A stretch of DNA of 64,000 nt from Avibacterium sp. 20-132 (GTDB taxonomy: Bacteria > Pseudomonadota > Gammaproteobacteria > Enterobacterales > Pasteurellaceae). The translations under genes were made by a program, and so were the position numbers. The DNA lies in NCBI RefSeq assembly GCF_023611925.1, contig NZ_CP091456.1, positions 186,001 to 250,000 on the forward strand. Direction: 5' to 3'. This document shows positions 19,626 through 27,245 of this stretch, piece by piece; the first letter of the stretch is position 1; every line of letters starts with the position of its first letter. The notes under the pieces are model-generated. The model saw only the letters and a program-made list of their open reading frames with translations. It made no database searches and was not told the origin of the DNA.

Positions 19626-19845
19626 TTTCCCTCTATATTTACACAAAAAAGCACATTTATTGCACCGCACTTTTCGTGCAATAGCTCAATTAAAGCGAAT
19701 GATTATCATCTTAATGCCAAAGCGAAAACAACACTCAAGTGAGCATTTATAGGCTAAAAAGGATTAAAGGAAATTCACCTTTTCATTCAAAAGTGGAATG
19801 ATATAATGCTACAAAAATCACTATTAGTAGGAGAACTCACGTTTT

Positions 19846-21562
19846 ATGAATAATAGCACAGCACAGCACAGCACAGCACAGCACAGCACAGCACAGCACA
19901 GCACAGCACAGCACAGCACAGCAAGATTGTAGTGCCAGCCTGGCACAACAGCAAGCCTTTTTAAATGATTTAGATGCCCGTCTATGGCAAGCAGCAGATA
20001 AACTGCGTAGCCAACTTTCCGCCTCTGATTATAAACATATCGTTCTAGGCTTAATTTTCTTAAAATACGTTTCTGATAGCTTCACCACATTTCGCAAAAA
20101 ACTTCACATCAAGCTACAAGATCCACAAGACCTCCTTTATCTTAATCCAAATGGTTATTCTGCTGAAGAATATCAAAACCTCCTCAATAGTGAAATGGAG
20201 CTACAAGACAACTACACCGCAGAAAATATCTTCTGGGTACCACAACAAGCTCGTTGGGAAACCATTCGCAACATCGCAACGCTCAATCAAGGTAGCCAAT
20301 TACCTTGGGGTGGCTCATTCCGTGGCGTGGCAAATCTTATTGATAACGCATTTTCTGCCATTGAAAATGAAAATCCAAAACTTAAGGGGATTATCCAACG
20401 TATTTCAGGTTACGACATCAATGATAAAACGCTGATCGGCTTGCTTAACACCTTTTCTGATACCGATTTCAGCCAACCTACTTATAACGGCGCACCGATT
20501 TCAATGGCGGCAAAAGATATTCTTGGCCACGTATATGAATATTTCCTTGGTGAATTTGCCGCGAAAGAAGGACAAAAAGGTGGGGAATATTTCACCCCTA
20601 AATCCATTGTCAGCCTGATTGTTGAAATGCTTGAACCTTACCACGGACGTATTTATGACCCAGCAATGGGATCGGGTGGTTTCTTTGTGCAAACAGAAAA
20701 ATTTATCGCGGCGCACCAAGGCAATATCAACCAAGTCTCTATCTACGGACAAGAATACAACCCCACCACTTGGAAGCTAGCTGCAATGAATATGGCAATC
20801 CGCGGCATTGAATTTAACTTTGGTAGACGCGGCGACAGCTTCACTAATCCACAACATATTGATATGAAAATGGATTTTGTAATGGCTAATCCGCCATTTA
20901 ACGTAAAAGACTGGTGGGACGAATCCCTACAAGGCGATCCACGCTGGGCATACGGCGTGCCACCAAAAGGCAACGCCAACTTTGCGTGGATTCAGCATAT
21001 GCTCTACCACCTTGTGCCACAAGGGCGAATGGGCATTGTGCTGGCAAACGGCTCAATGAGCAGCCAAGCAGGGGGCGAGGGCGAAATCCGCCGACGCTTA
21101 ATTGAAGCGGATTTAGTGGAAGCGATGGTTGCCCTGCCTAGCCAGCTTTTTACCAATGTTCAGATTCCCGCTTGTATTTGGTTTTTCAACAAAGCCAAAG
21201 CCCGTAAAGGCGAAGTACTGTTTATTGATGCACGGCAAGTGGGCTATATGAAAGACCGCACCTTGCGTGATTTTACCGCCGCCGACATCGCCCGCATTGC
21301 CGAAACCTACCACGCATGGCAAAAGGGCAGCGACTATGAGAACCAAGAAGGCTTCTGCTATACCGCAAGCCTTGAAGAAATCGCCAATAATGATTTCATT
21401 CTCACCCCCGGGCGTTATGTCGGCACACCTGAAGAGGAAGATGACGGCATCCCCTTTGAAGAAAAAATGGCAGAACTGACGACAAAACTGGCGGAACAGT
21501 TTGCCCAAGGACGAGAGCTAGAAGAAGCGATTAAGAAGAGTTTAGGTATTGTAGGGTACTAA
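19846..21562 (+). CDS. hsdM: Type I restriction-modification methyltransferase subunit, phase-variable, OFF as sequenced
   Basis: HsdM methylates adenine as part of an M2S core. The methylase motifs are D-P-A-M-G-S-G-G-F-F (SAM binding) and A-N-P-P-F-N-V-K-D-W-W (catalytic), with L-N-D-L-D-A-R-L-W-Q-A-A-D-K-L-R-S at the N-terminus. The only good start is the ATG at 19846 (AGGAG 12 bases upstream, somewhat long). It enters a (GCACA)13 tract in one frame and hits TAG at 19930-19932, while the methylase frame is offset by one base. That frame has no ATG until 20195, which would lose about 110 residues. Eleven or 14 repeat copies would restore a 568- or 573-residue protein; 12 or 13 would not. 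hsdS starts two bases after the stop. This parallels the pentanucleotide-controlled hsdM of H. influenzae. Confidence 0.92.
19856..19920 (+). repeat. Pentanucleotide simple sequence repeat (GCACA)13 inside the hsdM start region
   Basis: Thirteen perfect copies of GCACA run from 19856 to 19920, beginning four codons after the hsdM ATG, with a partial GCA after them. In the ATG frame they encode a repeating A-Q-H-S-T pentapeptide. Slipped-strand mispairing shifts the frame by two bases per unit, so one in three repeat numbers is ON. Confidence 0.97.
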
Positions 21563-21564
21563 TA

Positions 21565-22842
21565 ATGGAATGGATTGAAACAACTATTGGGGAATATTGC
21601 CCTTTTTCTTATGGTAAAGCACTACCACAAACTAAGCGAGTAAAAGGAAACTACCCTGTATATGGCTCAAATGGAATTGTTGGTTATCACAAAACACCTA
21701 GCGTGCAATCACACGGAGTTATCATTGGGCGGAAAGGAAGCCTTGGAGCTATTCATTTATCTTTAACTCCATTTTGGGCTATTGATACTTCTTTCTATGT
21801 GATTAAAGAAAGCATACTAGAATTAAAATTTACCTATTTTTTGCTACAAACACTGGGTTTACATGAAATGAATTCCGATAGTGCAGTACCAGGATTAAAT
21901 AGAGATAATGCTCATTCAGTGAGAATTAGAATACCAAAATTACAAAGTGATCGCGAAAAAATTGGTGAATATTTATCTATCTTTGATAACAAAATCGCCC
22001 TGAACACCCAAACCAATCAAACCCTAGAAGCGATTGCTCAAGCGATTTTTAAACATTGGTTTATTGATTTTGCCCCCGTACACGCCAAGGCGGAAGTCTT
22101 GGCAGCAGGCGGCAGTGCCGAAGATGCCGAGCTTGCCGCCATGGCTTCCCTAAGCGGCAAAACCCCTGATGCCATCACCGCCTTAGCCCAAAGCGATCCC
22201 GATGCGTATCAAACCTTACGACAAACCGCCCAAGCCTTCCCCAGCGCCTTTACCGACAGCGAATTAGGTTTAGTGTCAGAGGGGTGGGAGGTGAAGCCAT
22301 TAATTGATCAATTTGATTTTCAAGGCGGTTCACAGCCACCAAAATCCGAGCATATTTACGAAAAAAAAGAAGGGTATGTAAGATTTATTCAAAATAGGGA
22401 TTATGCTAATGAAAATCATAAAACTTATATTCCCGTTTCTAAGAAAAATAAGCTTTGCTCTGAAACAGATATTTTAATGGATAAATATGGCGAAGCTGGC
22501 AAGGTAAGGTTTGGTATTTCAGGTGCTTATAATGTTGCTTTAGCGAAAATCAAACCTAAAAATATTTTATTTAAAGAATTTCTTCGTTGGTATTTTATGC
22601 AAAAAAAGACGCAAGAATTTTTATTTTCAGCCTCACTTGCTTCAACAAGAAGTTCTTTAAATTCCAAAACATTTATTGGTATGAATATTTATATTCCTAC
22701 TAATAATGTACTCTCAGCGTTTAATACTATTGCTGAAAAATATATTCAGCATACATTAAACTTGAGAAAAGAGAACCGTACTTTATCTAAAGTTCGGGAT
22801 TTATTATTACCCAAATTACTTAACGGAGAATTGACACCATGA
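21565..22842 (+). CDS. hsdS: Type I restriction-modification specificity subunit
   Basis: A 425-residue HsdS with two target-recognition domains (about residues 1-135 and 245-385), each followed by a conserved helical region. The central helical region, with D-N-K-I-A-L-N-T-Q-T-N-Q-T-L-E-A-I-A near residue 145, is GC-richer than the AT-rich recognition domains. That mosaic is usual for genes whose recognition domains are exchanged by recombination. The C-terminus R-D-L-L-L-P-K-L-L-N-G-E-L is the standard HsdS ending. The target sequence cannot be read from the protein. It starts two bases after hsdM and overlaps the next small gene by four bases (ATGA), so it is translated from the hsdM transcript; OFF-phase hsdM may have polar effects. 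Confidence 0.93.
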   Translation: MEWIETTIGEYCPFSYGKALPQTKRVKGNYPVYGSNGIVGYHKTPSVQSHGVIIGRKGSLGAIHLSLTPFWAIDTSFYVIKESILELKFTYFLLQTLGLHEMNSDSAVPGLNRDNAHSVRIRIPKLQSDREKIGEYLSIFDNKIALNTQTNQTLEAIAQAIFKHWFIDFAPVHAKAEVLAAGGSAEDAELAAMASLSGKTPDAITALAQSDPDAYQTLRQTAQAFPSAFTDSELGLVSEGWEVKPLIDQFDFQGGSQPPKSEHIYEKKEGYVRFIQNRDYANENHKTYIPVSKKNKLCSETDILMDKYGEAGKVRFGISGAYNVALAKIKPKNILFKEFLRWYFMQKKTQEFLFSASLASTRSSLNSKTFIGMNIYIPTNNVLSAFNTIAEKYIQHTLNLRKENRTLSKVRDLLLPKLLNGELTP

Positions 22843-23147
22843 CAGAAGTAAAACTAATCCAAACAAAATGGAATATATTTTATACTCTTGCAAAACAGCT
22901 AAAACATAGAGATCGCTTTTATCCTCCTGCTAATTTTATTCCTTTACTAGAGAAAGGAAATGAAATTATTTATAACCATATATCTAGTGATAATATTAAA
23001 GATATAGAATCTTTAGTTTCTTTATTAGAGCGATGTGAGTTCCGCGGAGAAGTATGGACTTACAATGAAGCTTTCCCAGCGATTACTCAGCAAGACTTTG
23101 ATAATTTAACATCTATTCTTTTAAAATTATCTGAGTTCAATAAATAA
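22839..23147 (+). CDS. Small hypothetical protein in the type I R-M operon
   Basis: I do not recognise this 102-residue protein. It begins M-T-E-V-K-L-I-Q-T-K-W-N-I-F-Y-T-L-A-K-Q, is predicted mostly helical, and has no signal peptide or membrane segment. Its ATG overlaps the hsdS stop (ATGA), so it is translationally coupled and probably acts with the R-M enzyme, for example as an accessory or regulator, or is simply cargo between hsdS and hsdR. AT content is like that of the hsdS recognition domains. Confidence 0.65.
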   Translation: MTEVKLIQTKWNIFYTLAKQLKHRDRFYPPANFIPLLEKGNEIIYNHISSDNIKDIESLVSLLERCEFRGEVWTYNEAFPAITQQDFDNLTSILLKLSEFNK

Positions 23148-23162
23148 TTTTACGCTCCATAA

Positions 23163-24012
23163 AACGGGCGAACACATAGGTTCGCCCCTACGCAGGAATA
23201 AATAGATTTTGGAAAAATCAATAAAAATAAAAAATACGGTAAAAAAATCACAGATTTTTTCACACATATTATCCCGTAGGGGCGGACCTATGTGTCCGCC
23301 CGAAACAACATTCCCCATATAATAAACGGGAAAATATAAAAACGGACGAACACATAGGTTCGTCCCTACAAGGATGCAGAACGATATTTTAAATAATAAA
23401 TAGAAACAAAAATAAGGGAAAGCTTCCCCAAAAAGACTAACTATAAAAGTGCGGTAAAAAAATCACAGATTTTTTCACCATATATTACCTCGTAGGGGCG
23501 GACCGATGCGTCCGCCCGAAACTAAATTCCCCATACAATAAACGGGGAAAATATAAAAACGGACGAACACATAGGTTCATCCCTACAAGGATACAAAACG
23601 ATATTTTTAAATATAAATAGAAACAAAAATAAGGGAAAGTTTCCCCCAAAAGACTAACTATAAAAGTGCGGTAAAAAAATCATAGATTTTTTCACACATA
23701 TTACCCCGTAGGGGCTGACCTATGTGTCCGCCCGAAACAAAACTCCCCTTGCATAAACGGGAAAATATAAAAACGGACGAACACATCGGTTCGCCCCTAC
23801 AAGGATACAAAACGATATTTTTAAATATAAATAGAAACAAAAATAAGGGAAAGTTTTCCCAAAAAACTCACTATAAAAGTGCGGTAAAAAAATCACAGAT
23901 TTTTTCACACATATTACCCCGTAGGGGCGGATCGATGTGTCCGCCCGAAACTAAATTCCCCATACAATAAACGGGGAAAATATAAAAACGGACGAACACA
24001 TCGGTTCGTCCC
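23163..24012. repeat. Tandem array of inverted REP-like palindromes (BIME-like), about 215-bp period
   Basis: A 27-base palindromic element alternates in orientation. Forward copies start at 23165, 23343, 23560, 23774 and 23989; reverse copies start at 23276, 23492, 23708 and 23921. The core is an 8-bp stem GGGCGAAC/GTTCGCCC around ACATAG; some copies carry paired changes (GGACGAAC with GTTCGTCC) that keep the stem. The intervening DNA also repeats at 217, 214 and 215 bases (178 for the first, shorter unit). It includes a USS at 23447, 23664 and 23877 and an A-run/T-run hairpin around ATCACAGAT. The array fills the whole hsdS-side to hsdR gap; no gene is supported in it. Confidence 0.93.
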
Positions 24013-24044
24013 TTAAATAACAGTTATAAAACAAAGGATCCCCA

Positions 24045-27000
24045 ATGCACATCAACGAATCCACCATTGAAAATCTTGCCATTGAACAATTGCAATCTCT
24101 TGGTTGGCAATATGCCTATGGCAAGGAGGTATTGGCTGAACAGGATTGCCCTTGGCGAGAAAGTCTAACGGAAGTGGTAATAATACCTCACTTATTACAA
24201 AGTTTACGCCAGATTAATCCTCACTTGCCTCAATCTGTCTTGCAAGGTGTTGTACAGCAAATTACACAGCCTGATATTCTCTCAGTAGAAGAACGCAACA
24301 AGCGATTTTACCATCAGTTAAAGCAAGGGATAAAAGTACATTATCAGGAAGATGGGCAAGAAAAGCACGATGTGGCACTGCTGGTGGATTTTAAACAGCC
24401 TGAAAATAATCTCTTTTATGTGGTTAATCAATTGGAAATTGAAGGGGATAAAGGCAAGCGTATCCCTGATATTCTCTGTTTTATTAATGGCTTACCATTG
24501 GTTATCTTTGAGCTTAAAAATCCCCTTGATGTGAGTGCGGATTTAGATAAAGCATTCAACCAACTGCAAACCTATAAACGAGAAATGCCGGATCTCTTTG
24601 TGTTTAATCAATTAATGGTGATTTCAGACGGTACAATCGCACGCCTAGGATCGCTCACGGCTGATTTTCAGCGTTTTATGCCTTGGCGTGTGGTGGATGA
24701 AAGCCAAGGCAGCCTGCGTATAAACTTTGAAAATGAGCTTTCAGGCTTATTACAAGGGCTGTTTTCGCCTCAGGTATTGCTTGATTATCTGCAATCTTTC
24801 GTTGTGTTTGAGGCGGATAATAAAGGAACAACGGTGAAAAAAATTGCCGCTTATCATCAATTTTATGGGGTGAATGCGGCTGTCGAAGCCACCATTGCTG
24901 CGCAGTTAAGTGATAGCCGTAAAATAGGTGTGGTGTGGCATACGCAAGGTTCTGGGAAATCGCTTTCAATGTTGTTTTATGCGGGTAAGCTGATTACTCA
25001 GCCTGAATTAAAAAACCCAACTATTGTGGTGGTAACAGATCGTAATGATTTAGATGGACAGCTTTTTGCTACCTTTAGCCAAGATCAGGAAATAACACGA
25101 CAAACGCCCATTCAAGCAGATGATCGAGAAGCATTGCGGGCAGAATTGGCCAAACGAGAAAGCGGCGGCATTATTTTTACCACCATTCAAAAATTTGCTT
25201 TACGTGAAGGTGAGCTGCAACACCCTGTATTAAATGAACGCCATAATATTATTGTGATTAGCGATGAGGCCCACCGTTCGCAGTATGGATTTAGTCAGAA
25301 AATTAATCAACAGGGGACTTATCGTGAGGGCTATGCAAAATATTTGCGTACGGCATTACCCAATGCGAGTTTTATCGGCTTTACTGGTACGCCTGTGAGC
25401 TTAGAAGACCGTGATACGCAAGAAGTGTTCGGTAGATATATTTCTATTTATGATATTCAAGATGCTGTGCAAGATGGTGCCACAGTACCGATTATTTATG
25501 AAGCACGACAAATTCCATTACAAGAAAGTCAAGCCTTTCGACACGCTGTGCAAGAAGCACAACGTTTACTTGATGATGACGAAGAAAGTTATTCTTTCCG
25601 TTTGCGTGAACAGTTAATGGGAACAGATGAAAGAATCGCAAAATTAGCTGAAGATTTGGTGCGGCATTTTGAGAGGCGGACTGAACTCGAAGAGGGTAAA
25701 GCCATGGCAGTGGTAATGAGCCGTAAAATTTGCGTAAAACTGTATGATGAGATAATTAAATTACGCCCTCATTGGCATAGTGATGATATCAATCAAGGGG
25801 CGATTAAAATTATGATGACGGGTAATGCCAGCGATCCCGAAACAATGCAAAAGCATATTTATACTTCGCAAGATCGTAAAACCTTAGAAAAACGTTTTAA
25901 AGATCCTGATGATCCACTAAAAATAGTCATTGTGCGAGATATGTGGCTAACGGGGTTTGATGCCCCAGTATGTAATACGATGTATATTGATAAACCAATG
26001 CAAGGGCATAATTTAATGCAGGCGATTGCGAGGGTGAATCGTGTATTCCGCAATAAAAGCCGTGATAATGGCGGTTTAATTGTGGATTATGTGGGTTTAG
26101 CCGAAGAATTAAAACAAGCAACCAAGCAATATACAAATGCCGGGGGTAAAGATCAGGTTAAAACCGATATTGAACAAGTCTTTCAAAAAATGCTTGAATA
26201 TATTGATATTATTCGTGGCCAATTTGCAACACCTGTTAATGGTAACCCTTTTGATTTAGCTAAGGTATTAACATTAGATGATCCGAGTGCATTACTCAAT
26301 GCCATTCGCTTTGGTGCAAACCATATTTTAGCCTTAGATTATCAAAAAAATCATTCACAAAGTGCGGTGGAATTTTCCCAAGATTTTTCTCACCATACCG
26401 ATACACCACGCAAAAAAGCCTTTCTGCAAGCGGTGCGTTTAGCCAAAAAAGGCTTTATGCTTTGTAGTTCAATGCCAAATATTCAGCCTTATCGCCAACA
26501 GCTCGCCTTTTTTGATGCCGTACGTGCCACCATTATGAAAGCAGAAAATCAAGGCAATCACACAAGTTCCACAAAGGAAAAGCAAATTAAATTAATCAGT
26601 TTACTTAATCAAGCTGTTCATTCTGATGGCGTGGTTGATTTATTTGAGCTGATGGGGGAAGAACGCCCTGATCTTTCAATTCTTTCTGAAGATTTTATTG
26701 GAATGGTAAAACATAGCAACACGCCTACCCTATGGGCTTGTGCAATGGAAGGCTATTTAAAAAGCGAAATTCGTAATAAAGCAAGTAACAATATTGCTAT
26801 GCAAAAAACCTTTGAGGAAAAACTCAAAGAGATGATGAACCAATATAACAATCATAATTTGACTGTCATGGAAATCATCCGTGAATTAGTTGAGCTTGCT
26901 AAAGAAATTGAATATCAACTCGCTAAAGGGGAGAAATTAGGGCTAACTCATACTGAACTTGCTTTTTACGATGCGTTGATTCGTAACCAAAGTGCGGTGG

Positions 27001-27245
27001 AAAAAATGGAAGATTCCGCCTTGATTCTTCTTGCTAAAGAAATCACCGATCAACTACGCCGTTCCGTTACGATAGATTGGCAGCGAAAAGAGGCCGTTCG
27101 CGCTAAAATGCGAGTATTAATTAGACGCACATTATTAAAATATAAATATCCGCCCGATCTTGCCACTGAAGCCATTGAATTTGTACTTAAACAAGCAGAA
27201 GCGGTGGCGGAGGAATTGGTTATTCATTCAAAGGTTTCAGAGTGA
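24045..27245 (+). CDS. hsdR: Type I restriction endonuclease/translocase subunit
   Basis: A 1066-residue full-length HsdR. The N-terminal PD-(D/E)xK nuclease shows P-D-I-L near residue 140 and F-E-L-K-N near 155. The SF2 translocase has Walker A G-S-G-K-S near 303, D-E-A-H-R near 407, F-T-G-T-P near 448 and helicase motifs V/VI around W-L-T-G-F-D-A-P and Q-A-I-A-R-V-N-R. It cuts unmethylated DNA only as an R2M2S complex, so the OFF state of hsdM should silence restriction too. It lies about 0.9 kb after the small hsd-operon gene, across the REP array, and may need its own promoter there. The start [13 protein letters not shown] follows AAAGGA. Confidence 0.96.

Follow-up and report, generated by a model that had tools for sequence, protein, structure and literature searches.

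Is the hsdM gene of Avibacterium sp. 20-132, whose ATG runs through a row of GCACA units into a stop codon, a switchable methylase gene that was assembled OFF, as the initial annotation proposed, or is it dead, misassembled or translated from elsewhere? The gene lies in a stretch of 64,000 nucleotides (the window, whose positions are used throughout), and its host is probably a bird-associated bacterium. The features of the locus are as follows.

19780..19807, + strand: TTTTCA-16-TATAAT, possible sigma-70 promoter (10 of 12 consensus positions)
19829..19834, + strand: AGGAGA, likely ribosome-binding site, read from the sequence
19846..19932, + strand: ATG start and 28-codon frame as assembled (OFF), ended by TAG at 19930-19932
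19856..19920, + strand: (GCACA)13 simple sequence repeat, the putative switch (exact units counted, and TRF)
19850..21562, + strand: hsdM frame, Type I N6-adenine methylase with HsdM_N and N6_Mtase domains (Pfam, solved chain)
21565..22842, + strand: hsdS, specificity subunit, open frame of 425 aa with PF01420 in two stretches
22839..23147, + strand: 102-aa ORF between hsdS and hsdR (ORF call)
24045..27245, + strand: hsdR, HindI-like restriction and translocase subunit, open frame with PF04313, PF18766 and PF11867

The GCACA tract and the operon behind it

The tract comprises 13 exact units over 65 bases and begins ten bases into the gene, and TRF reported 13.8 copies at 19855-19923 with 100% matches. 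When a pattern of four exact units was searched in the genome (one contig of 2,585,160 bases), the hsdM tract was the sole match, and a reversed control pattern had 0 matches in the same contig. Based on this search, we rejected a tract arisen by chance. The tract was also the sole exact repeat in the window when units of 2-9 nt were required to reach 4 copies and 14 bases. The promoter candidate upstream is weak, since shuffles of the same stretch expect 1.0 such match.

The frame from ATG 19846 reads M-N-N-(STAQH repeats)-STARL before the TAG. A TGA at 19847 overlaps the ATG, and the HsdM frame, which is out of frame with this ATG, stays open from 19850 until the stop that ends at 21562; its earliest ATG, GTG or TTG, at 20195, is codon 116 counted from 19850. 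The third frame is closed by a stop at the tract edge. Because of this layout of frames and stops, a single start serves a single frame, and by frame arithmetic one copy-number class in three leads from ATG 19846 to the stop at 21562. Frame reading and TRF thus confirmed the path that the initial annotation had traced from the ATG through 13 units to the TAG, its displaced methylase frame indeed lacks a start before about codon 110, and its count of 11, 14 or 17 units for restoring the frame is arithmetically correct. The 13-unit allele, with the tract length of one assembly, is OFF by frame. Repeat counts are generally error-prone, and a wrong copy number, with the gene ON in the sequenced strain, would alter the OFF label alone while the switch itself stands. 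We consider such an error unlikely, given a perfect 65-base pentamer tract in a one-contig genome and an out-of-frame majority among the relatives with a tract.

The HsdM protein matched PF02384 (E 2.2e-117) and PF12161 (E 3.2e-21), with the HsdM_N match spanning residues 41-202, and among solved chains it is nearest to the Type I methylation subunit 3khk_A (E 1.7e-198). The NCBIfam hsdM equivalog TIGR00497 scored 167.4 bits, under its curated cut-off of 242.75, which we read as a divergent subfamily because the matches to Pfam and to solved M chains of Type I systems are strong. The hsdR frame exceeded the cut-off of TIGR00348 (687.8 vs 284.55 bits) and has a HindI-like C-terminus. NCBIfam models gave no match for hsdS, and neither Pfam nor NCBIfam matched the 102-aa ORF. 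As such, hsdM, hsdS and hsdR of a Type I restriction-modification (R-M) system are present with their domains, in the order hsdM-hsdS-ORF-hsdR. Among loci L039-L071, hsdR lies downstream of hsdM in 25 of 33, several of which end too early to tell. A common chromosomal site across the family was rejected, since lysC was matched beside hsdM in 0 of the 56 other loci listed (1.5 to 7 kb of flanking sequence, truncated in some loci by the end of a contig). A 217-bp unit is repeated in tandem at 23230-24013, between the 102-aa ORF and hsdR, with 3.6 copies. An inverted repeat rich in GC, GGGCGGAC...GTCCGCCC, lies within the unit, which has 39 matches in the genome, mainly short pieces near this inverted repeat. 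The word AAAAGTGCGGT, a putative DNA-uptake signal, is present in three of the four copies.

HsdM is required in both the M2S methylase and the R2M2S restriction complex of Type I systems. Judging from the sequence, this is very probably a Type I R-M operon in which hsdM would be switched by slipped-strand mispairing in the GCACA tract behind its start codon. Replication slippage would add or remove GCACA units and thereby displace the methylase frame against the ATG; one third of the copy-number classes would then yield HsdM, and with 13 units a 28-residue peptide alone would be produced. As in Type I systems generally, an OFF hsdM would turn off methylation and restriction together and therefore leave the unmethylated chromosome safe, and a return to ON would encounter that unmethylated chromosome. 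We infer that this strain switches, and that switching would be reversible, with loss of methylation and restriction and with mixed populations. The changes in phage resistance and in the methylome that the initial annotation foresaw would be expected on the same reasoning.

Selection on hsdM and its in-frame relative

To compare hsdM with its relatives, we calculated dN/dS between the Avibacterium sp. 20-132 gene and three congeneric copies, and the values were 0.143, 0.127 and 0.137; nine other hsdM pairs gave 0.06 to 0.35. The best protein match was P0001, the HsdM of Avibacterium sp. 21-599, with 547 of 564 residues identical (97%). The N-terminus of P0001 reads M-T-(AQHST)7-AQ in frame and implies a tract longer than 13 units, about 22 by codon equivalence, a number derived from the protein on the assumption that the codons are those of Avibacterium sp. 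20-132. Copy number and frame thus differ between 20-132 and 21-599, which are two separate isolates and not one strain, and the near relative is, by its protein entry, of a different tract length and of the predicted ON class.

Considering the low dN/dS and the in-frame P0001, hsdM appears to be kept as a protein. An hsdM inactivated by a frame error and surviving as a pseudogene would share with this locus an HsdM frame unreachable from its ATG, and some relatives with tract remnants are likewise out of frame, but 570 stop-free codons, open hsdS and hsdR frames, dN/dS of 0.13-0.14 and a 97%-identical copy in frame all argue against decay. We rejected this reading on dN/dS and the in-frame relative, and give it very little credence. 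The proposal of a frame-switched hsdM assembled OFF is instead supported by an open frame under purifying selection, by the 97%-identical relative in frame and by the occurrence of both states among relatives.

Comparison with known repeat-switched methylases

The initial annotation pointed to pentanucleotide-switched hsdM in H. influenzae, with GACGA units, and this is borne out by HI1287, which according to PMC2651432 switches with GACGA tracts of differing lengths; the switching rates, estimated there through lysis by phage HP1c1, were high even for (GACGA)4. PMC6646836 describes how the CGAGA repeat of hsdM3 NTHI1838 has gained indels in airway isolates from two patients, and both papers link their hsdM gene to Zaleski 2005. 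The H. influenzae HsdM is homologous to that of Avibacterium sp. 20-132 (entries 66-69% identical), and the tract position is the same. The unit is, in like manner, not divisible by three and placed between the start codon and the conserved domain. In our tree, the Avibacterium protein falls in the same 37-row clade as the Haemophilus rows, among them H. aegyptius, H. quentini and H. parainfluenzae, HI1287 itself not being a row. The trailer CAAGATTGT is common to the Haemophilus rows and Avibacterium sp. 20-132.

The Type I methylase M.Btr188III of Bibersteinia trehalosi carries an ACAGC tract and a protein start of MPN(STAQH)n, as given in the available text of PMC4996451. According to the same text, 27 ACAGC copies are in frame and the motif is methylated, while 17 copies are out of frame and the motif was unmethylated in two strains. 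The likeness to the Avibacterium locus is close in these excerpts: ACAGC is a rotation of GCACA, the tract likewise stands behind the start, and strains have in-frame and out-of-frame copy numbers. The N-terminus of M.Btr188III, as printed there, ties it to the family, since it recurs at the DNA start of L022 and in P0018 from Mannheimia haemolytica. The two cases differ in that methylation is shown for B. trehalosi, whereas the Avibacterium locus is known from sequence. GCACA is therefore distinct from GACGA, as the initial annotation had held, but is not new for hsdM; we rejected its novelty as an hsdM unit, since its rotation ACAGC is in print with methylome evidence in PMC4996451. The Type III mod phasevarions are comparable in that an N6-adenine methylase is switched ON and OFF by repeats, whereas they are Type III and belong to another gene family.

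The out-of-frame B. trehalosi alleles also bear on whether HsdM might still be produced, by translation from an internal or non-standard start codon or by slippage of ribosomes within the tract, which would then tune expression and not switch it. ATG 20195 opens a 455-aa frame, and N-truncated HsdM entries exist in databases, namely P0012 (Avibacterium paragallinarum, 482 aa) and P0110 (Volucribacter amazonae, 484 aa), both of which start inside the protein, as automatic annotation of out-of-frame copies would produce. However, a start at 20195 leaves out 115 codons at the beginning of the open frame, part of HsdM_N included, and the B. trehalosi motif was unmethylated in the two strains with out-of-frame alleles. 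Taken together, expression by this route seems highly improbable.

In PMC7394358, about 10% of Type I systems are said to contain such repeats, repeat-driven phase-variable Type I expression had been shown in two species at that time, and A. pleuropneumoniae, M. haemolytica and G. parasuis are among the species with such varying Type III or Type I systems. R-M genes of H. parasuis were examined for repeats in PMC6211672, the excerpts of which stress homopolymer tracts. Our literature search found no paper on GCACA together with hsdM; in the excerpts of PMC10783040, GCACA is a methylation motif and not a repeat. Since the H. influenzae and B. trehalosi precedents exist, the Avibacterium locus is a further probable case of a known hsdM switch. 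As a single locus, it adds one more host, and a survey of the family is more useful.

Tracts and repeat units across the Pasteurellaceae

We searched 140 Pasteurellaceae genomes and found a strong hsdM match (E <= 1e-120) in 69, about half being without one. The 5' end was examined in 68 of these copies, G143, with matches from residue 249 onward that do not cover the 5' end, being excluded. A tract was present in 44 of the 68 copies and, by the threshold used, in none of the other 24. With rotations merged, the 44 tracts fall into 15 unit classes, and several are short, from 3.1 copies. While units of 2-10 nt were allowed, 25 tracts have units of 5 nt, 13 of 7 nt and 6 of 4 nt; none of these lengths is divisible by three, and each unit therefore shifts the frame. 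When ON was defined as an in-frame ATG at or before the tract, 10 of the 41 scorable copies were ON and 31 OFF, compatible with one third (P=0.15); the remaining three lie at contig edges and were unscored. An in-frame GTG or TTG precedes the tract in 5 of the 31 OFF copies. With most scorable tract copies out of frame, a strain that lacks this methylation or restriction has not necessarily lost the gene.

Switchability is not universal, because 24 of the 68 copies have no tract and 11 of those have a plain in-frame ATG; another 11 have none, and 2 are at contig edges. Several of the 11 without an in-frame ATG retain one or two remnant units. In L144, L146 and L151, under two units are left, the leader is conserved and the HsdM frame is open with the in-frame ATG absent; an in-frame GTG or TTG exists in L144. 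These three may be stuck OFF or using another start, and alleles that short should hardly slip. Among 20 hand-picked hsdM paralogues from the same family (L134 cut to 423 bases), none carries a tract. The genome of Avibacterium sp. 20-132 itself has a second hsdM (G000:C1:708609-710180, with its 5' end as L119), which is 34% identical and without a repeat tract.

A quick tree of 93 HsdM rows, some of them long, with SH-aLRT as its sole support measure and a root placed at the midpoint, resolved the 37-row clade (SH-aLRT support 91), a 55-row clade and L030 as a single long row. The 37-row clade holds Pasteurellaceae, two Moraxella and one record titled Pseudomonas stutzeri, and the 55-row clade mainly other Pseudomonadota, including two Pasteurellaceae genomes. 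With a threshold of 4-9 nt units, at least 2.9 copies and at least 14 bases, tracts were found in 26 of 37 rows vs 0 of 55 in the sister clade (Fisher 1.5e-14, the rows not being independent), where L063, unscored, is counted as tract-free. In the 37-row clade, 5 of 22 copies were ON (P=0.21), with L029 omitted because its core is broken into pieces; L029 was counted ON in the 68-copy survey, and survey and tree rows share genomes.

For the repeat unit itself, we compared 28 loci chosen by hand as Haemophilus, Aggregatibacter, Rodentibacter and kin, with genera inferred from named twins. The leader ACTTTAC..AGG..ATGC was found in 24 of the 28 loci and the trailer CAAGATT(G/A)T in 23 of those 24. 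Between leader and trailer, 13 loci have at least 3 copies of ACACG, ACGAG, AAGCCAG or AAGTCAG, others have remnants, and one locus has about 2 copies of a fifth unit. The same trailer follows the GCACA tract in Avibacterium sp. 20-132. Because differing units sit between one leader/trailer pair, these loci argue for replacement of the unit in place. Outside the Haemophilus-Aggregatibacter-Rodentibacter group (inferred genera), the evidence is mixed. L010 (CAAT) and L011 (ACAGC) agree in 292 of 299 bases after the tract and in 122 of 177 aligned bases before it, and L021 and L022, with different units, share 282 of 299 bases downstream of the tract, while upstream of it their agreement does not exceed that of shuffled sequence. 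Avibacterium sp. 20-132 and L011 have a common unit and unrelated upstream sequence, and both flanks match between L011 and L013, whose unit is identical. Upstream BLAST gave 97.6% over 1276 bases for L011/L013 and no match for L010/L011 or L009/L011. Based on this pattern, the operon lies at different sites, and a change of flank need not mean a change of unit. Parsimony gave 10 unit changes among the 26 rows with 10 units (minimum 9) and 10 changes of tract presence, for which gain and loss are indistinguishable.

Switchability thus recurs across the family though the repeat itself is not conserved. On balance, we favor the view that this Pasteurellaceae hsdM lineage is a standing switch, in which switchability is selected, the unit is repeatedly replaced (partly in place) and the system serves as a rarely-ON reserve defence, the last point because most tract copies were OFF when sampled. 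The family would then offer a natural experiment on the origin, unit change and persistence of contingency tracts. No paper on family-wide unit turnover was found in our literature search, which covered sources other than the Atack 2020 survey; that survey reportedly dealt with repeats in Type I genes and may already list some of the tracts counted here.

Several loci stand out individually. In L059, a Moraxella MAG, and L062, Moraxella oculi, hsdM falls inside the Pasteurellaceae clade, and the MAG copy has an AACC tract; transfer between airway bacteria or a binning error is possible. The record titled Pseudomonas stutzeri NCTC11607 (L042) has a Haemophilus-like hsdM, its leader being of the same type, and is probably mislabelled. 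In L063 (Haemophilus aegyptius NCTC8502) and L187, the hsdM match starts at residue 80 and the N-terminal part lies in another frame, so that the frame is broken within the conserved core, besides the repeat region.
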